Below, one piece after another: positions 40,601-60,273 of a DNA stretch of 64,000 nucleotides. The position numbers and the translations under genes were made by a program. This DNA comes from Nitrobacter sp. NHB1 (GTDB taxonomy: Bacteria > Pseudomonadota > Alphaproteobacteria > Rhizobiales > Xanthobacteraceae). The notes under the pieces were generated by a model that saw only the letters and a list, made by a program, of their open reading frames with translations, searched no databases and was not told the origin of the DNA. How positions within the stretch are numbered: position 1 is the first letter of the stretch; each line of letters opens with the position of its first letter. Location: positions 2,642,001-2,706,000 of the forward strand of contig NZ_JBAMDA010000001.1 of NCBI RefSeq assembly GCF_036964665.1, in the 5' to 3' direction.

Positions 40601-41779
40601 TCAATCCCACGCAAGCGCACCGCCGTTCTGGTATTCGATGACACGGGTTTCGAAGAAGTTCTTCTCCTTCTTCAGATCCATCGCCTCGCTCATCCAGGGG
40701 AACGGATTGTCGGCTTCCGCGAACACCGGCGCGAGCCCGAGCTGGGCGCAGCGGCGGTTGGCGATGACGTGCATGTAGGTCTCGCACAGCGCCGCATTGA
40801 GGCCGAGGAATCCGCGCGGCATGGTGTCCCGCCCATACGCGGCTTCGAGCTCGGCGGCATTCTTCAGCATGGCCCGCACCTCTTCCTGGAATGGCGTGGT
40901 CCAGAGATGCGGGTTCTCGTGTCTGATCTGGTTGATGACGTCGATGCCGAAGTTCAGATGGATCGACTCGTCGCGCAGGATGTACTGGTACTGCTCGGCG
41001 ATGCCGACCATCTTGTTGCGCCGGCCGAGCGAGAGGATCTGCACAAAGCCCGTATAGAACCACATCCCTTCGAACACGACGTAGAACGCGACGAGGTCGC
41101 GCAGGAACGCCTGATCGGCTTCCGGTGTGCCGGTCTTGAAGCCGGGGTCGTCGAGATGCCGGGTGTGCTGGAGCGCCCAGGCCGCCTTGTCGGTGATGGA
41201 GGACACCTCGCGATACATGTTGAACAGCTCGCCCTCGTCGAGACCGAGGCTTTCGACGATGTACTGAAAGGTGTGGGTGTGGACGGCTTCCTCAAAAGCC
41301 TGGCGCAAGAGATATTGCCGGCACTCCGGGTTGGTGAGGTGGCGGTAGATCGCCAGAACGATGTTGTTGGCGACGAGCGATTCGGAGGCCGCGAAGAAGC
41401 CGAGGTTGCGTTTGACCATGCGCCGCTCGTCGTCGGTCAAGCCGTCCTTCGACTTCCACAGCGCGATGTCGGCCTGCATCGACACCTCGGTCGGCATCCA
41501 GTGATTGTTGCAGCCGGAGAGATACTTCTCCCAGGCCCAGCGATACTTGAGCGGCAGGATCTGGTTCACGTCGGCGCGGGCGTTGATCATCCGCTTGTCG
41601 TCGACGCGCACCCGCGCGGCGCCGCGATCGATGTCGCCGAGGCCGGTGGCGTCGGTGGGGGTGTCGGTCATTGCCACGCGAGGCGATGGATCAGGAGACG
41701 CCATGTTGTCATGCGCAAGCGTCTGCGGCGAAATGGGTTGCGCCGGTGCGGAAGGCGAGGTGTCGGACCAATCGAGCAT
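40601..41779 (-). CDS. nrdB: ribonucleotide reductase beta subunit, chlamydial class Ic type
   Basis: Radical-generating subunit, 392 residues. The first metal ligand is Glu (in [15 protein letters not shown]) where class Ia has Asp84, and the residue four after the second site His is Phe ([12 protein letters not shown]) where class Ia has the radical Tyr122. Both replacements match the Mn/Fe class Ic protein of Chlamydia trachomatis, which it also resembles in [20 protein letters not shown] and the ending [14 protein letters not shown]. It lies 63 nt after nrdA and is expressed under the same cobalamin riboswitch. Confidence 0.93.
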
Positions 41780-41842
41780 GAGGGTGTTCCTGAATTGCTT
41801 TTACTTTCGTGCCCGCGACGAGCGCGGGCATGGCGGTGAGGC

Positions 41843-44734
41843 TTACTGACACGCTTCGCAGGTCGGATCGTCGATGCGGCACGCTTTCCAGCCTTCGCTC
41901 TCGGCGGCGTGACCATTCAATGGTGCTGCTGACACTGACGCCGAGACGGCGTTGAGCTTGCCGTCGGTGCCTTTCAGCGTGGATTTCTCGACGTGGGTCG
42001 CCGAGCGCGAGCGCAGGTAATAGGTGGTCTTGAGGCCGCGCTTCCAGGCATGGCGATAGAGCGCGTCGAGCTTCTTGCCGCTCGGATCGGCGATGTAGAG
42101 GTTGAGCGACTGCGCCTGGTCGATCCACTTCTGCCGGCGCGCCGCGGCGTCGATCAGCCAGGCCGAGTCGATCTCGAAGGCGGTTGCATAGAGCGCCTTG
42201 AGATCGTCGGGGACCCGGTCGATCCGGCCCAGGCCGCCGTCGAAGTATTTGAGGTCCGAGATCATCACCTCGTCCCATAGCCCGCGCGCCTTGAGATCGC
42301 GCACGAGATGGGCGTTCACCACGGTGAAGTCGCCGGACATGTTGGATTTGACGTAGAGGTTCTGATAGGCAGGCTCGATCGACTGCGAGACGCCGCAGAT
42401 GTTGGAGATCGTCGCGGTCGGCGCGATCGCCATGCAGTTCGAATTGCGCATGCCGACGGTCATGACGCGCTGGCGCAGCGCGTCCCAGTTGAGCCGGCTG
42501 GAACGGTCGAGGTCGACCGGCGCGCCGCGCGCGTCATCGACCAGCGTGAGGGAGTCGAGCGGCAGGATGCCCTTCGACCACAGCGATCCCCGATACGAGG
42601 GATAGCGGCCGCGCTCGGCCGCAAGATCGACCGAGCCCGAGATAGCCCAGTACGAGATCGCCTCCATGCTCACGTCCGCGAAGGACACGGCTTCATCGCA
42701 GGCATAGGGCAGCCGCAGGATGTTGAGCGCATCCTGAAAGCCCATGATGCCGAGTCCGACCGGCCGGTGCCGCAGGTTCGAGGTCCGCGCCTCCGGGATG
42801 GTGTAGAAGTTCACGTCGAGCACATTGTCGAGCATCCGCATCGCGGTCTTCACGGTGTGCGCGAGGTGCTCGTGATCGAGCTTTCCGTCGTGCAAGTGGT
42901 TGACGAGATTGACCGAGCCGAGATTGCAGACCGCGACCTCGGTATTTGACGTGTTGAGCGTGATCTCGGTGCAGAGATTCGAGGAATGCACGACGCCGCA
43001 ATGCTGCTGCGGCGAGCGCAGGTTGCACGGGTCCTTGAAGGCGATCCAGGGATGCCCGGTCTCGAACAGCATGGTCAGCATCCGCCGCCACAACTCGACG
43101 GCGCGAACCTGCTTGGTCACCCGCATTTCGCCGCGCGCGGCCTTCTTCTCATAGAGGGCGTAGCGGTCGGCGAAGGCCTTGCCGGTGAGATCGTGCAGGT
43201 CCGGCGTCTCGTCCGGCGAGAACAGCGTCCAGACGCCGTCTTCCTCGACCCGCTGCATGAAGAGGTCCGGCACCCAGTTCGCCGTATTCATGTCATGGGT
43301 GCGGCGGCGGTCGTCGCCGGTGTTCTTGCGCAGGTCGAGGAACTCCTCGATATCGATGTGCCACGTCTCCAGATACGCGCACACCGCGCCCTTGCGCTTG
43401 CCGCCCTGATTGACGGCGATCGCCGTGTCGTTCGCGACTTTCAGGAACGGCACAACGCCCTGGCTTTCGCCATTCGTGCCCTTGATGTGCGCGCCGAGCC
43501 CGCGCACGCGCGACCAGTCGTTGCCAAGTCCTCCCGCGTATTTGGAGAGTAGCGCGTTGTCCTTGATCGCCTTGAAGATGCCGTCAAGATCGTCGGCGAC
43601 GGTCGTGAGGAAGCACGACGAGAGCTGCGGCCGCAGCGTTCCGGCGTTGAACAGTGTCGGCGTCGAGGCCATGAAGTCGAACGACGAGAGCAGGTCGTAG
43701 AACGCGATCGCCTTCTCCTCCCGGTCGATCTCGCGCAGTGCAAGGCCGCAGGCGACGCGCATGAAGAATGCCTGCGGCAGTTCGAAACGCGTGCCGCGGA
43801 CGTGCAGGAAGTAGCGGTCGTAGAGGGTCTGCAATCCGAGATAGTCGAACTGCAGGTCGCGCTCCGGCTTCAGCGCCGCCGCGAGCCGGTCGAGGTCGAA
43901 GCGCTCGATCTCGGGATCGAGCAGCTCATTCGCGATGCCGGTTCGTACATACGCACGGAAATACTCAGCGTAGCGCTCCGTCATCTCCGTCTGGGTCGCC
44001 TGCTCCGGCCGGCCGGTAATGAGGCCCAACGCCTCGCAGCGCAGCTTGTCGAGCAGGAGCCGCGCGCTCGCCTTGGCGTAGTCCGGGTCGGTCTCGACCA
44101 GCGTGCGCGCTGCGAGGATCGGAGCCAACGCCAACTCATCCGCGCTGATGCTGTCATAAAGGTTGCGATGGGTTTCGGTCAGAATGGCCTCGGCCGAGAC
44201 GCCGTCGAGTCCGGCGCAAGATTCCTCCACCACGGCAGCGAGGCGCCTGGTATCGAGCGGCGCCATCGATCCGTCGGCCGACTTCATCCGCAGCGTCTGC
44301 GCTGCGACTGCCGAACCGCCCTCTGCCTTCGACTCCTGCGCCTTAGCCCGTTCGCGTGTCCGCTCCTCGCGATAGAGCACATAGGCGCGCGCGACCTTGT
44401 GATGTTCGCTCCGCATCAGCGCGAGTTCGGCCTGATCCTGAATATCCTCGATGTGGAAGGTGCGGCCCGCATCAGTGCGCCGCGTCAGGCTGGCGACGAT
44501 CTGGTCGGTCAGTTCAGTGACGATGTCGTGGACCCGGCGCGAAGCGGCGGCGCTGTTGCCCTCGACCGCGAGAAACGCCTTGGTCAGCGCGACGGCGATC
44601 TTCGAGGAATCGAACGGCGATACCGACCCGTTGCGTCGAATGACCTGATACGCGGGTTCGCTGGGCGGCATCGCGATCGCAGCAGGCAAGGACGGACGCA
44701 CGGCACGCGCAGTAGCTTCGGTTGCGAGAGACAT
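41843..44734 (-). CDS. nrdA: ribonucleotide reductase alpha subunit (class I) with two ATP cones
   Basis: Catalytic subunit that reduces ribonucleoside diphosphates. 963 residues: ATP-cone 1 (about 20-115, VIRRNGSVSPFDSSKI), ATP-cone 2 (about 130-230, LRMKSADGSMAPLDTRRL), then the barrel with active-site Cys residues in HSSNLCTEITLNTS and AVCNLGSVNL, and the C-terminal redox pair DDPTCEACQ. ATG at 44734 is chosen; the in-frame ATG at 44830 would translate the riboswitch. B12 control implies a B12-dependent class II enzyme elsewhere in the genome, by inference. Confidence 0.94.
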   Translation of the reverse strand: MSLATEATARAVRPSLPAAIAMPPSEPAYQVIRRNGSVSPFDSSKIAVALTKAFLAVEGNSAAASRRVHDIVTELTDQIVASLTRRTDAGRTFHIEDIQDQAELALMRSEHHKVARAYVLYREERTRERAKAQESKAEGGSAVAAQTLRMKSADGSMAPLDTRRLAAVVEESCAGLDGVSAEAILTETHRNLYDSISADELALAPILAARTLVETDPDYAKASARLLLDKLRCEALGLITGRPEQATQTEMTERYAEYFRAYVRTGIANELLDPEIERFDLDRLAAALKPERDLQFDYLGLQTLYDRYFLHVRGTRFELPQAFFMRVACGLALREIDREEKAIAFYDLLSSFDFMASTPTLFNAGTLRPQLSSCFLTTVADDLDGIFKAIKDNALLSKYAGGLGNDWSRVRGLGAHIKGTNGESQGVVPFLKVANDTAIAVNQGGKRKGAVCAYLETWHIDIEEFLDLRKNTGDDRRRTHDMNTANWVPDLFMQRVEEDGVWTLFSPDETPDLHDLTGKAFADRYALYEKKAARGEMRVTKQVRAVELWRRMLTMLFETGHPWIAFKDPCNLRSPQQHCGVVHSSNLCTEITLNTSNTEVAVCNLGSVNLVNHLHDGKLDHEHLAHTVKTAMRMLDNVLDVNFYTIPEARTSNLRHRPVGLGIMGFQDALNILRLPYACDEAVSFADVSMEAISYWAISGSVDLAAERGRYPSYRGSLWSKGILPLDSLTLVDDARGAPVDLDRSSRLNWDALRQRVMTVGMRNSNCMAIAPTATISNICGVSQSIEPAYQNLYVKSNMSGDFTVVNAHLVRDLKARGLWDEVMISDLKYFDGGLGRIDRVPDDLKALYATAFEIDSAWLIDAAARRQKWIDQAQSLNLYIADPSGKKLDALYRHAWKRGLKTTYYLRSRSATHVEKSTLKGTDGKLNAVSASVSAAPLNGHAAESEGWKACRIDDPTCEACQ

Positions 44735-44814
44735 CGGCTCAGGACCCCAGTTTGTTGTGAGCCGGGGCCGAGCGGAGACGCGGGCAGGGACATCCCGCGA
44801 CAGACGCCGCGATC

Positions 44815-45055
44815 CCGCCACGCGATCCACCGGGACACCCCGCCCAGGGACGTTTCTGTTGTCGCGGCAGATCTACTGGCTCGCGGGTCCATGCGTCGGT
44901 CCGGTCTTCCCAGGGCCGTGCGGCCCCAGTGACACAATAATGGACTTCAGCTCACCGCTTACAGTTGCGGGGGCAGCGCCGGCATTGCCCGCGATTAAGA
45001 CTCGGGCGCACCGGCTTCCCTCTTAGCTCTCGATTTTGCGACTCGAGAGACCGTG
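44815..45055 (-). promoter_or_regulatory. cobalamin riboswitch upstream of nrdA-nrdB
   Basis: On the minus strand the leader contains GAGCTAAGAGGGAAGCCGGT, the B12-box region GCTGCCCCCGCAACTGTAAG followed by CGGTGAG, GACCCGCGAGCCAGTAGATC and GGGCGGGGTGTCCCGGTGG, all in the proper order. It is nearly the same as the metE element. It starts at about the predicted transcription start and ends about 80 nt before nrdA. Adenosylcobalamin would repress nrdAB. Confidence 0.93.
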
Positions 45056-45056
45056 A

Positions 45057-45093
45057 CCACCATATCTAGTAGTTCTACCGAACTTGGTGTCAA
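45057..45093 (-). promoter_or_regulatory. nrdA promoter with candidate NrdR box
   Basis: On the minus strand TTGACA (45088-45093) is followed 19 nt later by TAGATAT, placing the transcription start near the riboswitch 5' end. CCACCATATCTAGTAG (45057-45072) overlaps the -10 and matches most of the NrdR consensus CACWATATATWGTG. A second box was not clear. Confidence 0.4.
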
Positions 45094-45216
45094 TAGATCG
45101 TTTCGACCGCGGTCGCTAAATTCTCGTAATTCACAGTTCCGTCGAAGCGCTTCTATGGATCATCGGTCTGCCCGACCCTTGACGCTTCGATCCTACAGCC
45201 CATTATTCCAAGAGAT

Positions 45217-45927
45217 ATGCCGCAGCGTTTTTCTCGCGGCCCAACCGTCGAGTCTGCCGTGAACCAATTCGTCCGACCGAATCTGACGCCCCCGAACGGG
45301 CAAAAAAAGGTGCTTCTGCATTCCTGTTGCGCGCCTTGCTCGGGCGAAGTGATGGAAGCGATGCTGGCCTCGGGGGTCGATTACACGATCTTCTTCTACA
45401 ACCCCAACATCCACCCCCTGAAGGAATACCTGCTGCGCAAGGACGAGAACGTCCGCTTCGCGGAGAAGCACGGCGTGCCGTTCGTCGATGCCGATTACGA
45501 CAAGGACAACTGGTTCGCCCGTGCCAAGGGGATGGAGTGGGAACCCGAACGCGGCGCGCGCTGCACGATGTGTTTCAACATGCGATTCGAGCGCACCGCG
45601 CTGTATGCGCATGAGCACGATTTTCCGGTGATGACATCGTCGCTCGGCATCTCCCGGTGGAAGAACATGGCGCAGATCAATGACTGCGGCCATCGCGCGG
45701 CCGGACGCTATGACGGCCTGTCGTACTGGGATTTCAACTGGCGCAAGGGCGGCGGGTCGCAGCGGATGATCGAGATCAGCAAGCGCGAGGAATTCTATCA
45801 GCAGGAGTATTGCGGCTGCGTCTATTCGCTGCGCGACACCAATCAACACCGCAGGTATCAGGGCCGTCCGCCCATCGTGATCGGCACGCAATTCTACGGG
45901 AGCGATGACGATCCGGATTCGAAATAA
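45217..45927 (+). CDS. queH: epoxyqueuosine reductase QueH (cobalamin-independent)
   Basis: Last step of queuosine synthesis at the tRNA wobble position, done by an iron-sulfur enzyme unrelated to B12-dependent QueG. 236 residues (DUF208) with [58 protein letters not shown] and [12 protein letters not shown], carrying the conserved Cys pairs. ATG at 45217 with AAGAGAT upstream. Divergent from nrdA and followed by the metE riboswitch. Confidence 0.93.
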
Positions 45928-45974
45928 GATTCCGCTATGGCCGGTTGACGACCCGTGGACGCTGGCCCATAGGT

Positions 45975-46210
45975 GGGGCCGTCGAGGTTCTCCGGGTATT
46001 CGTGCCTGGAGCTAAGAGGGAAGCCGGTGCGCTCTTGAGCAAGACCGGCGCTGCCCCCGCAACTGTAAGCGGTGAGCCGTGGTCCATCATGCCACTGGGT
46101 GTCGTCCCGGGAAGGCTGGACCAAAGCTGAGACCCGCGAGCCAGGAGACCTGCCCCGGCAACATAGTCGTCCTCGGGCGGGGTGTCCCGGTGGTGCGGTT
46201 GCGGTCTCGA
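45975..46210 (+). promoter_or_regulatory. cobalamin riboswitch upstream of metE
   Basis: Contains GAGCTAAGAGGGAAGCCGGT, GCTGCCCCCGCAACTGTAAG with CGGTGAG, GACCCGCGAGCCAGGAGACC and GGGCGGGGTGTCCCGGTGG in canonical order. About 70 nt of expression platform precede the GTG start of metE. High cobalamin would shut off the B12-independent methionine synthase. Confidence 0.95.
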
Positions 46211-46279
46211 TGGCGGCTCGTCGCCAGGATTCCCATGCCGCGTCGCTAAGGCCCAGCCTCCAACATATGGGGTTAAGCC

Positions 46280-48616
46280 GTGTCTGTTTCCTCTCTTCCT
46301 GTCGCTACGCTCGGCACGCCGCGCATCGGTCCGCGCCGCGAACTGAAAACCGCGCTCGAAAGCTACTGGTCGGGCAAGTCCAACGAAACCGCGCTGCTTG
46401 AAGCGGCGGCCGGATTGCGCGCCGTGAACTGGGCGCGCCAGAAGTCGCTCGGCGTCACCGTCATTCCGTCGAACGATTTCACGCTCTACGACCATGTGCT
46501 CGACACCAGCGTCATGGTCGGCGCGATACCGGAGATCTACGGATGGAAAAGCGGGCCGGTGCCGCTCGCAACCTATTTCGCGATGGCGCGCGGCGCCCAG
46601 GGTGGAGATCACGATCCATCCTGCGCGCATGGCCATCATGGCGACGGTGACGTTCATGGCGCGCCGGCGCAGGAGATGACCAAGTGGTTCGACACCAACT
46701 ACCACTACATGGTTCCTGAATTCAGCAAGGGCCAGCGCTTTGCGCTCTCCTCGCTCAAGGCGATTGATGAATATCGCGAGGCCAAGGCGCTCGGCTACCA
46801 GACCCGGCCAGTGCTGCTCGGCCCCGTCACCTATCTGAAATTCGGCAAGAGCAAGGACGCGAATTTCGATTCCCTGTCTCTACTTCCCGATCTGCTACCG
46901 GTCTATATCGACGTGCTCAAGCGCCTTGCCGCAGAGGGAGCCGACTGGGTGCAGCTCGACGAGCCCTGTCTCGTTCTCGATCTCGATGATGCGACCCGCG
47001 ATGCGCTGCGCAAGACTTATGAGCAGGTCGCGCGCGCTTTGCCTAACCTGAAGATCATGCTGACCACTTATTTTGGCGGCATCGGTGACAATCTCGATAC
47101 CACCCTCTCGCTGTCGGTCGCCGGCCTACACCTCGATCTTGTTCGCGCTCCCGAGCAGCTTGAGCCCATCGCGGCAAAGGCGGCGCAAGATCTGGTTCTG
47201 TCGCTCGGCGTCATCGATGGCCGCAACATCTGGCGCGCCAACCTGCCGGCGCTGCTTGACCGGCTCGAACCCGTGGTCGCCAGGCGTGGCATCGACCGTG
47301 TGCAGATCGCGCCGTCCTGCTCGCTCCTGCACGTGCCGATCGACGTGTCGCTGGAGACCGACCTCGATGCGGAGCTGAAGAGCTGGCTTGCGTTTTCGGT
47401 GCAGAAGATGAGCGAGCTGGCAACGCTCGGTGAAGCTCTCGCCAAAGGCCGCGACTCGGTCGGCGATGCGCTGGAAGCCTCCGCAAACGCCGCGGCGGCG
47501 CGCAAGACATCGCCGAAGGTCCATGACACCAGAGTTACAGCACGGATCGCAGCCATCACGCCTGACATGACCAGGCGCAAGAGCGTCTTCGCAGGTCGCG
47601 CCAAGTTGCAGCACGAGCGCTTCGGCCTCCCGTCGTTCCCGACGACCACGATCGGCTCGTTCCCGCAGACCGCCGAGGTCCGCAAGGCGCGTTCGGCGCA
47701 CGCCAAAGGCATGATGAGCGATGCCGACTATGAGAAGTTCCTGCAGGACGAGACGGCCCGAACCATCCGCTGGCAGGAAGACATCGGCCTCGACGTGCTC
47801 GTGCATGGCGAGTTCGAGCGCAACGACATGGTTCAGTATTTCGGCGAACAGCTTTCCGGATTCGCCTTCACCAAGCACGGCTGGGTTCAGAGCTACGGCT
47901 CGCGCTGCGTCCGCCCGCCGATCCTGTTCGGCGACGTGTCCAGGCCCGAGCCGATGACCGTCGGCTGGTGGAAATACGCGCAATCGCTGACCGCGAAACC
48001 GATGAAGGGGATGCTCACCGGCCCCGTCACCATTCTCAACTGGTCCTTCGTGCGCGATGACGTGCCGCGCAGCGTTGCCTGCCGGCAGATCGCGCTCGCG
48101 ATCCGTGACGAGGTCGCTGACCTGGAAACGGCCAGCGCATCCATGATCCAGATCGACGAGGCCGCGCTGCGCGAGGGGCTGCCGCTGCGCCGTTCCGAAT
48201 GGAAGACGTATCTCGACTGGGCCGTGGAGTGTTTCCGTCTGTGCGCGAGCGGCGTCGCTGACGCGACCCAGATCCACACCCACATGTGCTATTCGGAGTT
48301 CAACGACATCATCGATGCGATCGCGGCGATGGATGCCGACGTCATCTCGATCGAGACGTCGCGCTCCAGGATGGAGCTTCTCGACGCCTTCAAGGATTAC
48401 AAATATCCCAACGAGATCGGTCCCGGCGTCTACGACATCCACTCTCCGCGCGTGCCGGCGGTCGACGAGATGACCGGCCTGCTCAAACTTGCGCGCCAGC
48501 GCCTGTCCGACGGCCAGCTCTGGATCAATCCGGATTGCGGACTGAAGACCCGCAAGTGGGAGGAGGTCAGGCCGGCGCTCGTCAACATGGTGGAGGCGGC
48601 GAGACTGATGCGTTAG
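46280..48616 (+). CDS. metE: cobalamin-independent methionine synthase
   Basis: Transfers a methyl group from methyltetrahydrofolate triglutamate to homocysteine, without B12. 778 residues with N-terminal barrel and C-terminal zinc barrel. Zn ligands lie in IHTHMCYSEFNDII (His, Cys), VISIETSRSRMELL (Glu) and INPDCGLKTRKWEE (Cys). A His/Asp-rich insertion coded at about 46602-46670 (GGDHDPSCAHGHHGDGDVHG) precedes EMTKWFDTNYHYMVPE and is not in typical MetE. GTG start at 46280 with GGGG upstream. Confidence 0.96.
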   Translation: MSVSSLPVATLGTPRIGPRRELKTALESYWSGKSNETALLEAAAGLRAVNWARQKSLGVTVIPSNDFTLYDHVLDTSVMVGAIPEIYGWKSGPVPLATYFAMARGAQGGDHDPSCAHGHHGDGDVHGAPAQEMTKWFDTNYHYMVPEFSKGQRFALSSLKAIDEYREAKALGYQTRPVLLGPVTYLKFGKSKDANFDSLSLLPDLLPVYIDVLKRLAAEGADWVQLDEPCLVLDLDDATRDALRKTYEQVARALPNLKIMLTTYFGGIGDNLDTTLSLSVAGLHLDLVRAPEQLEPIAAKAAQDLVLSLGVIDGRNIWRANLPALLDRLEPVVARRGIDRVQIAPSCSLLHVPIDVSLETDLDAELKSWLAFSVQKMSELATLGEALAKGRDSVGDALEASANAAAARKTSPKVHDTRVTARIAAITPDMTRRKSVFAGRAKLQHERFGLPSFPTTTIGSFPQTAEVRKARSAHAKGMMSDADYEKFLQDETARTIRWQEDIGLDVLVHGEFERNDMVQYFGEQLSGFAFTKHGWVQSYGSRCVRPPILFGDVSRPEPMTVGWWKYAQSLTAKPMKGMLTGPVTILNWSFVRDDVPRSVACRQIALAIRDEVADLETASASMIQIDEAALREGLPLRRSEWKTYLDWAVECFRLCASGVADATQIHTHMCYSEFNDIIDAIAAMDADVISIETSRSRMELLDAFKDYKYPNEIGPGVYDIHSPRVPAVDEMTGLLKLARQRLSDGQLWINPDCGLKTRKWEEVRPALVNMVEAARLMR

Positions 48617-48665: not shown

Positions 48666-49664
48666 ATGCTGCCGAATCAATCGCATAGATTTTCCGTCGC
48701 GCCCATGATGGATTGGACCGATCGGCATTGCCGGGTGTTCCATCGCCTGCTCACGCGTCGTGCGCGGCTCTACACCGAGATGCTCACGACCGGCGCGGTG
48801 ATCCATGGCGCGCGCGACCGTTTGCTTGGGTTCAGTGATATCGAGCATCCGGTCGCGCTCCAGCTCGGCGGATCGCATCCGGGCGATCTCACGGCGGCCG
48901 CGCGCATCGGTGAGGATTTCGGCTACGACGAAATCAATCTGAACGTCGGCTGTCCGTCCGACCGGGTGAAGGATGGCCGGTTCGGCGCCTGCCTGATGGC
49001 CGAGCCGGATGTCGTTGCCGAGGCCGTTCACGCCATGAAACGCGCGGTGTCCGTTCCGGTCACCGTGAAATGCCGGATCGGGATCGACGATCAGGATTCC
49101 GAAACCGGCCTCGACGGCTTCGCGCGCAAGGTGGCGGCGGCCGGCGTCGATGCCCTGATCGTCCATGCGCGAAAAGCGTGGCTCCAGGGATTATCTCCGA
49201 AGGAGAACCGGAATATTCCGCCGCTGGACTATGACAGGATTTACCGGTTGAAAGCGTCGCTTCCCGATCTGCCCGTGATCGTCAACGGCGGCATCGGCGG
49301 GATTTCAGAAGCGAAACAACATCTGGCGCATGGCGATGGCGTCATGCTGGGCCGCGCCGCCTATCAGGATCCATGGCGGTTGCTGAAGGTCGATTCCGAA
49401 CTGTTCGGCGAGGCGGCACTGCACGCCACGATGAAGCGCGCGCTCGAGGCCATGATACCTTACATCGAGGATCAACTTGCAAGCGGCGTGCGATTGCATT
49501 CCATCACCCGGCATCTTGTCGGCGCGTTTCATGGCGCGCCGGGGGCGCGGGCGTTTCGGCGCTATCTCGCCGAGAACGGCGTGAAGGCCGATGCTGGCGT
49601 CGATGTCTTGCGGGAGGCGATGGCGCTGGTGGATGAACCTGCGGTGTCGTCCATCGCGGCATGA
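48666..49664 (+). CDS. dusA: tRNA-dihydrouridine synthase A
   Basis: Flavoenzyme that reduces uridine in the tRNA D-loop. 332 residues with HRFSVAPMMDWTDRHCRVFH, LQLGGSHPGDL, EINLNVGCPSDRVKDGRFGA (catalytic Cys), VTVKCRIGID and VNGGIGGI, all as in DusA. Starts 49 nt after metE. Convergent with the liv operon. Confidence 0.95.
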   Translation: MLPNQSHRFSVAPMMDWTDRHCRVFHRLLTRRARLYTEMLTTGAVIHGARDRLLGFSDIEHPVALQLGGSHPGDLTAAARIGEDFGYDEINLNVGCPSDRVKDGRFGACLMAEPDVVAEAVHAMKRAVSVPVTVKCRIGIDDQDSETGLDGFARKVAAAGVDALIVHARKAWLQGLSPKENRNIPPLDYDRIYRLKASLPDLPVIVNGGIGGISEAKQHLAHGDGVMLGRAAYQDPWRLLKVDSELFGEAALHATMKRALEAMIPYIEDQLASGVRLHSITRHLVGAFHGAPGARAFRRYLAENGVKADAGVDVLREAMALVDEPAVSSIAA

Positions 49665-53200: not shown

Positions 53201-54406
53201 CTAACGCGCGTCCCAGGCCGGCATCGGATATTTCGGCGCCGCGATTTTGCCGTGGACGCCCTGGATTGCGACCAGTTTGCCATCCTGGATCTGGATCACG
53301 GTCTGCGGCAGATCGATCTGGCCGTTCGCATTGAACGCAATCCGCCCGTAAAGACTGTCGAAATCCACCTTGGACAATGCGTCCCTGACCTTTACGGGGT
53401 CGATCGTGCCCGCATTTTCCACGGCTTTCACCACGGCCTCGACGTCGGCCGCGCCGGACGCGGCATGATAGTCGGGATCGTAGTTGAACTTCGCCTTGAA
53501 GGCCGCAGCGAATTGCGCGGCGTCGCCGAACCATTGATCCTTGAGGTCGGCGGAAGGCAGCCAGGCCGTCATGCCGAAAGCGTAGTCCGCATCTTTGCCG
53601 AGAGCCTTGCGGAAGTCTTCACTCGGGACGCCCACCGTGAAGGAATACATCTTCGGGGCGACCGCAAGACTCTTGGCCTGCCGCACGAAATTCAGAATCT
53701 CGGTTTCGTGGCCCGCCACCAGCACCGCATCGACGTTCTTGCTCTTGACCTGCGAGAGCAGCGAGTTGAAGTCCGTCGCATTGGTGCTGTAACGCTCGTC
53801 CATGGCCAGGGTGAAGCCAGCCTCTTTCAGTTTGGGCCGCGTGCCCTCCGCCACCGAGACGTCGAAGGCATCGTCGGCATACAGCAGGGCGACCGATTTC
53901 GGGGCCGGATCGAGCCCCTTCATCATCTCCACCGTCGAGCCGAAATAGTGGCTGGCCGGCGCCAGCGTTCCAAAAATATACTTGAACTTGCGCGCGAAGA
54001 TCTGGTCCGACGCGCCGCCGCCCTGGACCATCGGAATCTGGTACTTTTCGGACACAGCCGAATCCGCCAGCGCGAAATTGCTTGCGAACGGCCCCAGCAG
54101 AAAATTCACCTTGTCCCGTGAAACCAGTTGCGTGTACTGACGCACGCTCAAATTGACGTCCGACTGATTGTCATAAAGTTTGAGTGCGAGCTTGTAGGTC
54201 TCATTACCGACCTTGACCCCGCCAGCTTCGTTGATCTTGTCGACCGCGAGTTGATAGGCGTCACGATAATACCGGCCGGTATTGGCAACGGGTCCCGTCA
54301 ATTGTACGGACGCCCCCAGCACAATGTCCTTTGCCGCGGCCGAGCCAGACGACATCGCAACCGCAGCCGCGACCAAAGCGGCCGACAAACCGGAAATTTT
54401 CAACAT
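53201..54406 (-). CDS. livJ: branched-chain amino-acid binding protein (LivJ/LivK family)
   Basis: Periplasmic binding protein, 401 residues, with signal peptide (about 1-25, GSAAAKD). Contains [59 protein letters not shown] and [17 protein letters not shown] as in Leu/Ile/Val-binding family 6 proteins. First gene of the liv operon. The specific ligand (amino acid, amide or aromatic acid) is not certain. Confidence 0.9.
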
Positions 54407-54415
54407 GAAATGACC

Positions 54416-54445
54416 CTCTATAATGGCACTCTATAATGACACTCT
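54416..54445. repeat. 13-bp direct repeat in the livJ leader
   Basis: CTCTATAATGGCA and CTCTATAATGACA follow each other at 54416-54428 and 54429-54441, with a partial third unit CTCTG. It lies about 10-40 nt before the livJ start and overlaps its ribosome-binding region. Could be a slip-strand or regulator target. Confidence 0.6.
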
Positions 54446-54688
54446 GTCCCGCGGCTGTCCTGGTTCTGCGCCCTAGCTTCCGGTAATATTTCTTACTTCC
54501 CGCGATCAGCACCTGTAGGGGTGATGCGGGATGGATGTCTCGGTCGCGCTATACAACCAGCACGCAAGCACTTGGTTCCCGGTGCCCCGATAACGATCGA
54601 ATCCGCGTTCACCTCGTATCCTGGCTTTTGACAAACGAATAAGACTGCGGCTCGATATCGGCTCGATAGCTATCGGGAGACCGCTTCA

Positions 54689-55585
54689 ATGGACACGGAA
54701 CTGGCCAGAACTTTCCTCACCGTCGTGACAGCGGGGAATTTCATCAGTGCCGCGGATCAGCTTCACGTCAGCCAGTCGACGGTCAGCACGCGCATTCACA
54801 CGCTCGAAGAGCAGTTGGGCTGCATGCTCTTCGTCCGCAACAAGGCTGGCACGACGCTGACGTCTGCCGGCCGGCAATTCCAGCGGCACGCGGCTACGCT
54901 GGTGCGGACAATGGAACAGGCGCGACACGACATAGGCATTCCGGAAGGATTTAGCGGAACGCTGGTTGTCGGTTGCCGTATCGGCCTGTGGGAAGAATTC
55001 CTGCTGCAGTGGCTTCAGCTCATGAGGGAGGCCAGGCCGGAAATATCCATTCGCGCCGAAAGCGGGCACGAGCCGGAATTGATGCAGGGGCTTATCGAGG
55101 GGCGGATAGACATTGGCGTTATGTACACTCCGCAGGTTCGTCCGGGATTGAAGATCGAGCAATTGTTCGAAGAGCACCTCATCCTGGTTTCAACGGATCC
55201 GAATGGCAAACACGAACCTCGATCCGGCTATGTGTATGTCGATTGGGGGCCTGAGTTCTATGCGCGGCACAATGCCTGCTTTCCGAACTTTGGCAGCCCT
55301 CCGCTGAGCGCGAATATCGGCTGGCTGGGATTGCTGCACGTGCTGGAGAACGGAGGATCCGGTTATTTCCCAAAGCGGATCGTCATGCCTCATCTGAAGA
55401 CCGGGCGCCTCAATCTGGTGAGCGACACGCCTGAGTTTTCAATGCCCGCATACGTCGTTTACCCTCTTGAGGGGGATCGCGATCTGTTTGCCAGCGCAAT
55501 CGAGATCATGCACCAGGTTGCCAACTCGAAACCGAAAACGGCGGCAACGGCGAAAGGCGCAAAGCGGGCAGTACGACAGCGCTAG
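54689..55585 (+). CDS. LysR-type transcriptional regulator
   Basis: 298 residues. N-terminal helix-turn-helix: TFLTVVTAGNFISAADQLHV, SQSTVSTRIHTLEEQLGCML and FVRNKAGTTLTSAGRQF. The effector domain follows (FSGTLVVGCRIGLWEEFLLQ, ENGGSGYFPKRIV). Divergent from the liv operon across 282 nt, so control of that operon is likely but inferred. Confidence 0.92.
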   Translation: MDTELARTFLTVVTAGNFISAADQLHVSQSTVSTRIHTLEEQLGCMLFVRNKAGTTLTSAGRQFQRHAATLVRTMEQARHDIGIPEGFSGTLVVGCRIGLWEEFLLQWLQLMREARPEISIRAESGHEPELMQGLIEGRIDIGVMYTPQVRPGLKIEQLFEEHLILVSTDPNGKHEPRSGYVYVDWGPEFYARHNACFPNFGSPPLSANIGWLGLLHVLENGGSGYFPKRIVMPHLKTGRLNLVSDTPEFSMPAYVVYPLEGDRDLFASAIEIMHQVANSKPKTAATAKGAKRAVRQR

Positions 55586-56185
55586 ATCTATCTCGAGATC
55601 CCGTTCCGAAGTTGCTCGTGGTCCATTGTTTCTAACATGTGCAAGAACTCCTGCCGCAACGGGATGCAAATGTGAGAATCGGACGACTAGAGGAATGCGA
55701 AGCGGTGCCTCGTCGCAGGAACGCATTCGCCAACCGAAGCGCCGGCATCACCAAGTGAGTCAGTCGGCTCGAATTCAAGGTCAGAATCCCTGATATTGAT
55801 AGCGCATCTTCGTATCGGCAGATCGATTCGCAATCCGTCAACGTATTCAGGCCCGCATTTGTTAGCGGCGATAACGCTCGCGCGTTCGTGTTGATGTATC
55901 TGCTTTCTTGAATTTAACGTGCAATATTTCTCGCTTGAAAAAAAACAAGAACGGTCGAGAGTGAACTAAGACCAGCGCGTATGGCGTTAGTCTTGCGACA
56001 CAGGTTTTGCTCTCTCACGTTTTTGCACGTTAGGGACCGAACCGTGAAAGGAACTTATCCGGTTCAAGCGATCGAACTGCGGATTCGAATATTTGACTCG
56101 GAATGAACCCACTATCTCGAGATGAGGTTTTAACTTCGAAGGAAGTTACGACGTCATCCGAGGTTACTGATTGGGAAGGGTCGAT
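55586..56185. other. 600-nt region without a recognised gene
   Basis: Six-frame reading gives no product with recognisable family features. It is richer in A+T than its surroundings (for example ATTTAACGTGCAATATTTCT and GAAAAAAAACAAG near 55912-55950), which would fit a regulatory leader for the oxidase gene. No FNR-type TTGAT-N4-ATCAA box or known riboswitch was seen. Confidence 0.5.
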
Positions 56186-57790
56186 ATGACATCCGCTGCA
56201 ACGACGAACGATTCCCACATCCACGCTCACCCGACCGGCTGGCGACGCTACGTGTATTCGACGAACCACAAGGATATCGGCACGATGTATTTCGTGTTCG
56301 CGATCTGCGCGGGATTGATTGGCGGGACCTTCTCGGTCTTGATTCGGATGGAGATGCAGGAGCCAGGTCTCCAGATTTTCTCCAATCCGCATGCCTACAA
56401 CGTATTCCTCACAGGCCACGGCCTGATCATGATCTTCTTCACGCTGATGCCGGCGCTGATGGGAGGGTTCGGCAACTGGATGGTGCCGCTGATGATCGGT
56501 GCGCCGGACATGGCGTTTCCGCGCATGAACAACATTTCGTTCTGGCTGCTGCCGGCATCGTTTACACTGTTCATCATTTCGCTGTTCGTCGGAGGCGAGC
56601 CCGGCACGGATGGGGCCGGCACCGGCTGGACACTCTATGCGCCGCTGTCGACCAGTGGCCATCCCGGCCCGTCGGTGGATTTCGTGATCCTCTCGTTGCA
56701 TCTTGCCGGAGCGTCTTCGATCCTCGGCGCGATCAATTTCATCACCACGATTTTCAATATGCGCGCACCGGGCATGACCATGCACAAGATGCCGCTGTTT
56801 GCATGGTCGGTCCTGGTGACGGCATTCCTGCTCCTGCTGTCGCTTCCGGTGCTCGCCGGCGCGATCACGATGCTGCTGACCGATCGTAATTTCGGCACCA
56901 CGTTCTTTGCTCCCGAGGGTGGCGGCGATCCGGTGCTGTATCAACACCTGTTCTGGTTCTTCGGCCATCCTGAGGTCTACATCATGATTCTGCCCGGCTT
57001 TGGGATCGTCAGCCATGTGATCTCGACCTTCAGCCGAAAGCCGATCTTCGGCTACCTCGGAATGGTCTATGCCATGGTGGCGATCGGGTTCATTGGCTTC
57101 GTGGTCTGGGCCCATCACATGTACACCGTCGGAATGTCGAGTTCGGCCCAGGCTTACTTTGCTCTCGCCAGCATGGTGATCGCGGTGCCGACCGGGGTGA
57201 AGGTGTTCTCGTGGATCGCCACCATGTGGGGCGGCTCGATAAGCTTCAAAACGCCGATGTTGTGGGCGACCGGCTTCGTGCTTGTGTTCACGATCGGCGG
57301 CGTCACCGGTGTGGTGCTCGCTAATCCGGGCGTCGATCGGGTCTTGCAAGATACCTATTACGTCGTTGCACATTTCCACTATGTGCTGTCTCTCGGCGCG
57401 GTGTTCGCCATCTTTTCCGGCTGGTATTACTGGTTTCCGAAAATTACCGGATACATGTATTCGGAGTTTCTCGGCAAGCTGCACTTCTGGCTGACCCTGA
57501 TCGGCGTTAATCTGGCTTTCTTCCCGATGCACTTCCTCGGTCTGGAGGGAATGCCACGGCGCGTCGCCGATTATCCGGATGCATTCGCCGGCTTCAACCA
57601 CATCGCATCAATCGGATCCTACATATCGGCAGCGGGCACGATCGTGTTTGTCGTCGGCATGATCCATGCCTTCGTTCGCAAGGTGAAGGCTGCGGCCAAT
57701 CCGTGGGGGGCCGGTGCAACCACACTCGAGTGGACGCTGTCTTCGCCGCCGCCATTTCATCAATTCAACGTTTTGCCGCGTATAGAGTGA
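56186..57790 (+). CDS. ctaD: cytochrome c oxidase subunit I (aa3-type), stand-alone
   Basis: Catalytic heme-copper subunit, 534 residues and 12 helices. Heme a ligand His in [20 protein letters not shown], Cu-B His/Tyr and the E of the D-channel in [20 protein letters not shown], the His pair in [14 protein letters not shown]-channel Lys in PTGVKVFSW and heme ligands in [24 protein letters not shown] precedes ATG at 56186. No subunit II, III or assembly gene follows, so partner subunits must come from elsewhere. Confidence 0.95.
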
Positions 57791-57829
57791 TTCAACGCTC
57801 AGTGACTTACGCCGCGAGGCGGCCAGGAC

Positions 57830-57860
57830 GAGGCGCACCTTTTTCCCCGGGGTGCGCCTC
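57830..57860. terminator. hairpin between convergent ctaD and secA
   Basis: Perfect 10-bp arms GAGGCGCACC and GGTGCGCCTC with loop TTTTTCCCCGG. It lies directly after both stops, so it could end both transcripts, but there is no clear U-tract after either arm. Confidence 0.5.
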
Positions 57861-57861
57861 A

Positions 57862-60273
57862 TCACGTCGGACGGATGCCCACGCGCATGGCATAAGCCGT
57901 CACGTCGCGACGGAAATCGGCGATCATCCGTTCGAGCAGGGCGAACGCTTCAAGCTGAAATTCCGCGACGATCTGATGCGATGGCAGCCGGCGGTCGCCG
58001 ATCCGGCGCTTGAGATGATCGAGGCGTGCGGATTGCTCCGACCAGAGGTGATCGATCAGCGCCATCATCAGCCGGCCAAGAATATCGACAAACATGGCCT
58101 CGCCCATGCTGGCGATCTTGCCGTCGATCCAGCGGTCGGCCGTGGCGCGTATACGCTGTGCGAGAGCCTTTGCATCGGCTTTGGGATCGGCGGATGGAGG
58201 GCTGATATCGACGGCGAGAGTCAGGACCGATCGGATCGCGTGATCCAGCCCGGCGAGGTCCCATGGGGCGCTCGGCGTTGCGAAACGGGCGATCAGATCG
58301 TCGATCGTCTCATGGCGCAACCGCGTCGCCAATGTGAGCGTATCGTTGCCGTCGCGGATCGTGTGGCGCAAATCGTAGACATGATCGCGTTGGCTTTGAA
58401 TGATCGTGTCGAATCGCAGAAGCCCGAGACGTCGATCGAAGCTGCGGACCTCATGCCGCTTCTGCGCCGCGCGGATCAGGCGGCTGGCGACCGAGGGTGC
58501 GATCGTGGCGGCCTGTTCGGGTTGAGCTACGCTGATTGCCGCATTGGTCAGGAACTCGTCTTCCAGCGAGGCATGGAAAATGGATCGCCCCGGATCGCCC
58601 TGCCGGCCGGCACGGCCGCGCAACTGTTCGTCCATTCGTCCGTGATCGTGATGGGTGGTGCCGATCACCAGCAGCCCGCCGGCGGCAATGACTTGCGCGC
58701 GCCTGGCGACGTCGGCATTCTCTCCGCCAAGCCGGATATCGGTGCCCCGGCCGGCCATTGCAGTGGCGATCGTCACTGCGCCGGGGGCGCCGGCCTCGGC
58801 GATGATCTGGGCTTCGCGGGCATGATGTTTGGCATTGAGCACCGCGAAGGTGCGGGTTGTGCCGTCGCTCTTGGTCTCGTCGTTACGCTGCCGCCAGCCG
58901 TTGGCTTCAAGCATTGCCGCCAGCGCTTCCGATCGTTCGATCGATGGAGCGCCGATCAGCACCGGCTGGCCGCGCGCGGCGGCGTCTTCCAGTTCCCGCA
59001 GGATCGCCCGCAACTTGCCGGCGGCGGAGGCGTGGAGCACGGATTCGTCGACCCGGACCATCGGACGGTGTGTCGGGATGGAGATTACATCAAGGCCGTA
59101 GATATCGTTGTATTCTTCGGCGTCGGCTTTCGCGGTTCCGGTCATGCCGGCTAGCCTGGCGTAACGACGGAAGTAGGTCTGGAACGTGATCGCGGCCAGC
59201 GTGTGCGTTTCCTCGCCGATGGCGCATCCTTCCTTGGCTTCCAGGGCCTGATGCAGTCCTTCGTCATAGCGTCGTCCCGGTATCGGTCGTCCCGTCAGCC
59301 CGTCCACAAGGGTCACGCTGCCGTTTACAACGACATAATCGCGGTCGCGTGCAAGCAGGACATGAGCCCGCAGCGACTGCACGACGTGGTGGAGCATCGA
59401 AATCGATGCGATGTCATGCAGCGTCGTTGGGGTCTTCAGTAGTCCTTGCTGTTGCAGCCGCTGCTCGACTTCGCTGTATCCCGCCTCGGTCAGCGCAACG
59501 CGCCGCCGAGGATCGATCTCATAATGCGAGGGCTGCAATGAGGCGATGACGGCATCGACCGTCTGATAAAGGCCCGAGTGATCGCCAAGCGGGCCGAACA
59601 ACGCCAGCGGCATGGCGGCCTCGTCGATCAGCGTGGCGTCGGCTTCGTCGACCAAAGCGAAGGCATGGCCACGCTGGACGGTTTCCGCGGCGGAAAACTT
59701 CATGTTGTCGCGCAGATAGTCGAAGCCGAACTCGCTGGCGATTCCGTAGGTGATATCGCAACGATAGGCTTCGCGCCGGCTGTCGTCGTCCATCTCCCGG
59801 GTGATGACGCCGGTACTCAATCCCAGCACGTCGTAGACCGGCCGCATCCAGCCGGCATCGCGCTCGGCCAGATAGTCGTTCGGCGTGGCAACATGGACGC
59901 CCTGAGCGCTCAAGGCATGGAGCGCGCAGACCAGCGTGGCGGTCAGCGTCTTGCCTTCGCCGGTCTTCATCTCGGCGATATGGCCATCATGAAGCGCCAG
60001 GGCGCCGATGGTCTGCACTGGAACGGGGTGTTGGTTCAGCGCACGGCGCGAGGCCTCGCGAGCCAGTGCGAAGACCTCCTCCTTGATCTCGTCGAGGGCG
60101 GTGCCGGCCCGGACTCGCTGCCGCAATTCGGAGACGCGATCACGCAAGCCGTCGGCAGACAGCCGTCGATGGTCGGGCTCCATGGCGAGAATCCGGCCGG
60201 CCGTCGTTTCGTATTGTGTCAGTTTCCGGCGAGTGCCGAAATTCAGCGCGCGCCTCGCCAGGCGCGGGATCAT
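57862..60273 (-). CDS. secA: accessory SecA-type preprotein translocase ATPase (short form)
   Basis: 803 residues, about 100 shorter than housekeeping SecA, without the C-terminal linker or CxC zinc motif. Walker A is [15 protein letters not shown] (about 100-114), DEAD-like Walker B is [14 protein letters not shown] (canonical is VDEVDS), with [32 protein letters not shown] and [16 protein letters not shown]. The start ATG overlaps the tonB stop (ATGA), so translation is coupled to tonB. An accessory SecA in a TonB operon is unusual; it may export a partner of the TonB system. The housekeeping SecA is presumed to be elsewhere. Confidence 0.9.

Follow-up and report, generated by a model that had tools for sequence, protein, structure and literature searches.

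A probable B12-independence island in Nitrobacter sp. NHB1: riboswitch-preceded nrdAB and metE flank a queH gene that probably replaces queG

Is a queuosine gene that lies between two cobalamin riboswitches itself controlled by cobalamin (vitamin B12)? The question is raised by a block in the nitrite-oxidising bacterium Nitrobacter sp. NHB1 in which queH, encoding a predicted cobalamin-independent epoxyqueuosine reductase, stands between nrdAB (ribonucleotide reductase) and metE (cobalamin-independent methionine synthase). The block lies in a window of 64,000 nucleotides (contig NZ_JBAMDA010000001.1, positions 2,642,001 to 2,706,000), which is the whole stretch of DNA that was analysed; all positions refer to this window unless stated otherwise. 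An initial annotation had described a B12-sparing island with all three loci under cobalamin control. According to our comparison of sequences, two of the three, nrdAB and metE, look to be under B12 control and queH does not. The block is probably a B12-independence island in which nrdAB and metE serve as riboswitch-controlled backups, while queH would be a permanent replacement for queG with a promoter of its own. The annotated genes and the two riboswitches were recovered with protein profiles and with the Rfam model RF00174:

40601–41779, minus strand: nrdB, ribonucleotide reductase small subunit (NF005550, 678.9 bits; PF00268)
41843–44734, minus strand: nrdA, ribonucleotide reductase large subunit with ATP cone (NF005544, 1725 bits; PF02867, PF00317, PF03477)
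44849–45070, minus strand: cobalamin riboswitch in the nrdA leader (RF00174, 126.8 bits, full length)
45064–45093, minus strand: candidate nrdA promoter, weak (TTGACA at 45093–45088, CTAGAT at 45069–45064)
45179–45206, plus strand: promoter-like site of queH (TTGACG-N16-CATTAT), between the nrdA aptamer and queH
45259–45927, plus strand: queH, predicted cobalamin-independent epoxyqueuosine reductase (PF02677, 217.5 bits; 88.5 bits to the QueH of structure 7lc5)
45945–45973, plus strand: promoter-like site of metE (TTGACG-N17-CATAGG), between the queH stop codon and the metE aptamer
45968–46171, plus strand: cobalamin riboswitch in the metE leader (RF00174, 133.6 bits, full length)
46280–48616, plus strand: metE, cobalamin-independent methionine synthase (TIGR01371, 1120.5 bits; cut-off 929.95)

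Of the three B12-dependent counterparts named in the initial annotation, two were found in the genome, metH at C1:2236041-2239610 (1754.8 bits) and nrdJ at C1:903814-906315 (558 bits). Thus, both metE and nrdAB duplicate functions for which the genome also has B12-dependent enzymes. For the third counterpart, queG, there was no match to TIGR00276 in this genome, and QueH is therefore the only epoxyqueuosine reductase seen and not a fallback. nrdAB and metE each show both marks of a backup isozyme, an aptamer of their own and a B12-dependent twin in the genome. queH shows neither, as no QueG twin and no aptamer in its own leader were found. QueH is best read as a putative replacement for QueG. 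The proposed B12-sparing island is thus upheld for nrdAB and metE, but control of all three genes is not: for queH the missing queG, the leader without aptamer and the separate promoter-like sites speak against it.

Both aptamers cover positions 1–189 of RF00174 (gathering cut-off 31.5). By their match in sequence and structure the nrdA and metE leaders carry aptamers of this family, and control by the ligand is predicted. The two had been called near-identical; only 148 of 204 aligned bases (72.5%) are shared, so they are homologous relatives and not near-identical copies. The genome contains four RF00174 matches in total, two of them in this block. The remaining two precede the gene for a TonB-dependent receptor and a FecCD/periplasmic-binding-protein pair, which are expected to be B12-uptake genes. 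No aptamer was detected by the RF00174 search upstream of queH on the plus strand. Nor was one found on the same strand within several kb upstream of queH in any of the 20 queH-containing genomes of the family, where some queH contigs were short and the filters stricter. Control of queH by the divergent nrdA aptamer was considered and rejected, as that aptamer lies on the opposite strand and queH has a promoter-like site of its own.

This site is the sole sigma-70-like match of a consensus scan in the region 44700–46420 (mean of shuffled sequences, 0.3). In 7/7 Nitrobacter genomes both hexamers recur at the same distance (with CTTTAT in one of them), while the surrounding stretch is variable. 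The TTGACG and CATAGG of the metE site are kept in the same 7/7 genomes, at a score under the threshold of the scan. The nrdA candidate was missed by the scan, and its GTCAA block is kept in all nine aligned rows that have an nrdA aptamer.

That cobalamin elements repress B12-independent ribonucleotide reductase and methionine synthase is established, according to the part of the source available (PMC545781). The block resembles this strategy in that nrdAB and metE each lie behind an RF00174 aptamer in a genome with nrdJ and metH; it differs in that in Nitrobacter both flank queH, which has no preceding aptamer. In the mechanism that we propose, Nitrobacter would import cobalamin and seemingly cannot synthesise it, auxotrophy being judged in this genome from cobS alone. 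cobS had no match in 7/7 queH-containing Nitrobacter genomes, this one included, and is present in both Nitrobacter genomes without queH. Cobalamin bound to the nrdA or metE aptamer would turn nrdAB or metE down, and the cell would rely on NrdJ and MetH; with B12 scarce or inactivated, nrdAB and metE would both be on. This direction of the switch is the one known for the riboswitch class. Transcription of queH would start from its own promoter regardless of B12, presumably constitutively, which would keep queuosine synthesis B12-free. The whole block would permit a cobalamin auxotroph to grow without the vitamin, and selection for B12 independence would be the cause of the linkage. Vitamin-free growth is described, in the text available, for N. 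vulgaris MLSD-S22, which has metE and metH and no de novo cobalamin pathway (PMC13101473). In the auxotroph Caulobacter crescentus, facultative scavenging with riboswitch-controlled B12 uptake (btuB) and metE has been shown experimentally, and the available part of that paper states B12 riboswitches for btuB and metE only (PMC6538847). In Nitrobacter, unlike Caulobacter, nrdAB is also behind a riboswitch and QueH stands in place of QueG.

The assignment of the queH product as an epoxyqueuosine reductase is predicted from the family profile and the cysteine motifs. Profile support comes from Pfam, with no NCBIfam match. In the alignment with the solved QueH (7lc5) the CC, CxxC and YCGC motifs coincide, and we take these cysteines to be family-defining; CCAPC is found here and CCAPD in 7lc5. 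The likeness to known cases of QueH in place of QueG lies in PF02677, in the homology to solved QueH and in the presence of the gene where queG was not found. The clustering of Nitrobacter queH with B12-independent isozymes and two aptamers is, besides the CCAPC motif, the difference. Translation probably starts at GTG 45259 rather than at ATG 45217, as a GTG is found there in 7/7 Nitrobacter genomes (ATG in G299 and G232, which belong to another genus) and ATG 45217 is confined to the window sequence and not kept in other Nitrobacter. For nrdA, the in-frame ATG at 44734 is likelier than the GTG at 44830 of the mechanically called open reading frame, as read from sequence alone.

Replacement of queG by queH is also suggested by the family sample of 198 genomes, in which queH is present in 20 and queG scores over the cut-off in 172. 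queG is below the cut-off or lacking in 18 of the 20 genomes with queH, and over the cut-off in 170 of the 178 without it (Fisher p 2e-17, not corrected for kinship). Exactly one of the two genes is over the cut-off in 188 of the 198 genomes. Both occur together in two (G325 and G334) and neither in eight, of which six are less than 90% complete; G217 and G251, which have queH, show weak queG matches under the cut-off. Within each of four genera (g1, g112, g125 and g127) both the queH and the queG state are found. As a family-wide predictor of B12 auxotrophy queH is weak and was rejected: cobS is kept in 7/20 genomes with queH and in 100/178 without it (p 0.10), which also weighs against our reading. 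As many as 252 plasmid records contain queH homologues, and Klebsiella or Escherichia, whose chromosomes carry queG, account for 165 of these records.

The order nrdBA–aptamer/queH–aptamer–metE is whole in seven of nine Nitrobacter genomes and is an all-or-none character. The two genomes without it are G264 and G295, of which G295 is 89% complete. Neither queH nor an NrdB match was found in them; their metE matches are partial and below 115 bits, and queG and cobS are both present. Outside Nitrobacter the full block was found in G299 and G232 of genus g112, which bears out the expectation that the linkage would be kept in relatives. Elsewhere it is partial. The order queH–aptamer–metE occurs in G251 (g112) and in G325 and G334 (g115), where QueH is 54–59% alike, and among named genomes in Hyphomonas, Sphingopyxis and one Sphingomonas; in G284 (g112) queH adjoins metE and no aptamer was found. 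Searches for aptamers outside the window used Rfam plus a nucleotide profile, and the genome-wide scan of the family and class samples used stricter filters that lose weak matches. An aptamer lies within 1 kb of queH in 12 of the 20 family genomes with queH (three of six genera) against 0.05 expected, the genomes being related and not independent. The linkage of queH with metE and nrdAB is real; outside the family it is uncommon. The two g115 genomes behind loci L122 and L123 possess queG and cobS alongside their divergent QueH, which is encoded in the order queH–aptamer–metE, and contain 12 and 10 cobalamin aptamers.

Out of 579 confirmed matches, the best 80 by similarity to the QueH of Nitrobacter sp. 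NHB1 were taken as named loci; the closest among these are from N. vulgaris Ab1, Nitrobacter sp. 62-13 and Nitrobacter sp. Nb-311A. L006–L008 were excluded because the Nitrobacter genomes to which these named records belong are in the count already, which leaves 77 loci. metE (at least 40% identity over at least 250 residues) is found within 2.5 kb of queH in nine of the 77, two of them (L035 and L068) with partial MetE matches, against 0/77 for each of NrdA, NrdB and DusA; MarR is too short to serve as a control. Four of the 77 loci have an aptamer within 1 kb of queH against 0.23 expected, assuming five aptamers per 4.5 Mb and with the loci being related. Weak matches of a regular-expression riboswitch finder in L036, L081 and L123 (at 4671) had no profile support and were not counted; the same finder missed the aptamer in L076, which the nucleotide profile and Rfam both detect. 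On a QueH tree of 126 rows from a quick search, which took 29 loci from the 35 queH-containing class genomes other than our own and excluded L006–L008, the label ‘metE-linked’ changes 13 times by parsimony, at least three times on well-supported branches, as gains or losses. L035 was not given this label, its MetE match covering about half of the protein. A contig labelled Bacillus subtilis (L056) has a QueH that pairs with Pseudochrobactrum in the quick tree (SH-aLRT, the approximate likelihood ratio test, 100); contamination, a wrong label or a recent transfer may explain this.

Two of the 77 loci are candidates for a queH that may be controlled by B12. In Paracoccus caeni (L027:5775-6663) the queH start lies some 40 bases after the end of an RF00174 aptamer (129.6 bits). 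No gene intervenes, a convergent frame comes afterwards, and queH is apparently a single-gene unit. In Stenotrophomonas sp. PS02289 (L076:3193-6657) an aptamer of 92.4 bits is followed by metE and, about 65 bases further on the same strand, by queH, a putative operon through which cobalamin would act on queH. The suggestion that B12 regulation extends to tRNA modification is thus not supported in the genome for which it was made and finds two candidates elsewhere. We are evenly divided on a wider proposal, that queH with metE, and in places nrdAB, is a recurrently assembled B12-independence cassette of Proteobacteria, that a riboswitch captured queH in some lineages (P. caeni, Stenotrophomonas) and there couples the wobble modification of tRNA to B12 status, and that Nitrobacter represents the case where queG was replaced and queH escaped.

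Several observations weigh against the island as we read it. Presence and absence of the block in Nitrobacter amount to one change on a MetH tree, so the correlation within this genus counts once. In eight of the 20 queH-containing family genomes queH has no aptamer nearby. In the order sample queH occurs in one of 150 genomes, our own, and none of the 35 queH-containing class-sample genomes outside the family has an aptamer near queH, six of them having any aptamer at all. The promoters are consensus-like sites supported by conservation, of which the scan passes that of queH only. Leader folds in three stretches were no more stable than shuffles; they were discarded as evidence for expression platforms. 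Some of these points would favour an incidental co-location, an ancestral arrangement inherited in Nitrobacter in which the position of queH has no functional reason. It would account for the single change on the MetH tree and for the class sample, and also for genera g97, g125 and g127, where the stretches read (some of them short) contain queH and neither nrdAB nor metE. Nevertheless, we consider it quite unlikely: proximity of queH to aptamers exceeds expectation in both samples, kinship aside, metE is found near queH where NrdA, NrdB and DusA are not, the linkage label changes repeatedly on the QueH tree, and g115 shows the same gene order with a QueH of low similarity.

A single module in which all three genes are cobalamin-controlled and QueH is the fallback for QueG appears highly improbable. 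The tight linkage with two aptamers in 7/7 queH-containing Nitrobacter genomes would fit it, and the P. caeni and Stenotrophomonas loci suggest that such an arrangement can arise, but here queG was not found, no aptamer precedes queH on its strand, and its promoter-like site is separate and conserved. A weaker form of B12 influence, which we regard as unlikely, is read-through from queH into metE, whereby the B12-bound metE aptamer would end or destabilise the message. B12 would then adjust where queH mRNA ends and how stable it is, but would not act as its main switch. queH and metE are on the same strand, 40 bases separate the queH stop codon from the aptamer match, and the scan found no plus-strand terminator-like site in 44700–46420; yet between the stop codon and the aptamer there is the metE promoter-like site kept in 7/7 Nitrobacter genomes. 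Another explanation takes the block as a defence against reactive nitrogen, in which MetE, QueH and a class Ic reductase that lacks the tyrosine would benefit a nitrifier under nitrous oxide (N2O) and nitric oxide (NO). In its favour, NrdB has Phe at the position of the radical tyrosine, and NO attacks tyrosyl radicals. N2O, for its part, selectively inactivates cobalamin, as the available text of one source has it (PMC11906303). The same NrdB type is, however, found in two g112 genomes, and the explanation is compatible with B12 scarcity and does not exclude it; as a cause of its own we consider it very unlikely. The preferred reading remains that of riboswitch-controlled nrdAB and metE backups around a B12-indifferent queH.

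The Phe, which lies in the sequence EEAVHTHTF, is a signature of class Ic (R2c) and marks NrdB as putatively class Ic-type. EEAVHTHTF is present in the window and in 11 other loci (12 examined), three of the 11 being named copies of others. The best sequence matches of NrdB in PDB are 6y2n (669 bits) and 4d8f (455 bits, with 1syy alongside), which we take to be class Ic proteins. While the Phe at the radical site and these closest sequences resemble the Chlamydia-type R2c reductase, Nitrobacter differs in having nrdAB behind a cobalamin riboswitch and a class II enzyme also in the genome.

The strategy of the island is known and its neighbour, queH, is new; the role of queH is unlike the one proposed earlier. 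Through B12 riboswitches, as is known, cells turn to B12-free enzymes for making methionine and nucleotides. Should queH be part of this linkage group and have been captured by riboswitches in some lineages, vitamin supply could set queuosine and hence the decoding by tRNAs with GUN anticodons. Within single genera queH has taken the place of queG almost cleanly, which amounts to a natural experiment on why one cobalamin enzyme was dropped and two were kept as switchable pairs. QueH itself is reportedly the subject of a 2017 paper by Zallot, and a 2013 paper in PNAS is said to deal with N2O and B12 riboswitches. The initial annotation knew of no description of the co-location of queH with the other two loci, and in the literature searched, which left subscription journals mostly outside, we likewise found no report of it or of queH with a cobalamin riboswitch in its leader or next to it.

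Downstream of metE, dusA (48666–49664) was considered as a member of the island and rejected, as it was seen in one of 19 relatives' stretches (L121), several kb from metE. Further along the window, positions 54001–58000 have a GC fraction of 0.556–0.576 against 0.61–0.65 elsewhere, and are possibly acquired DNA.

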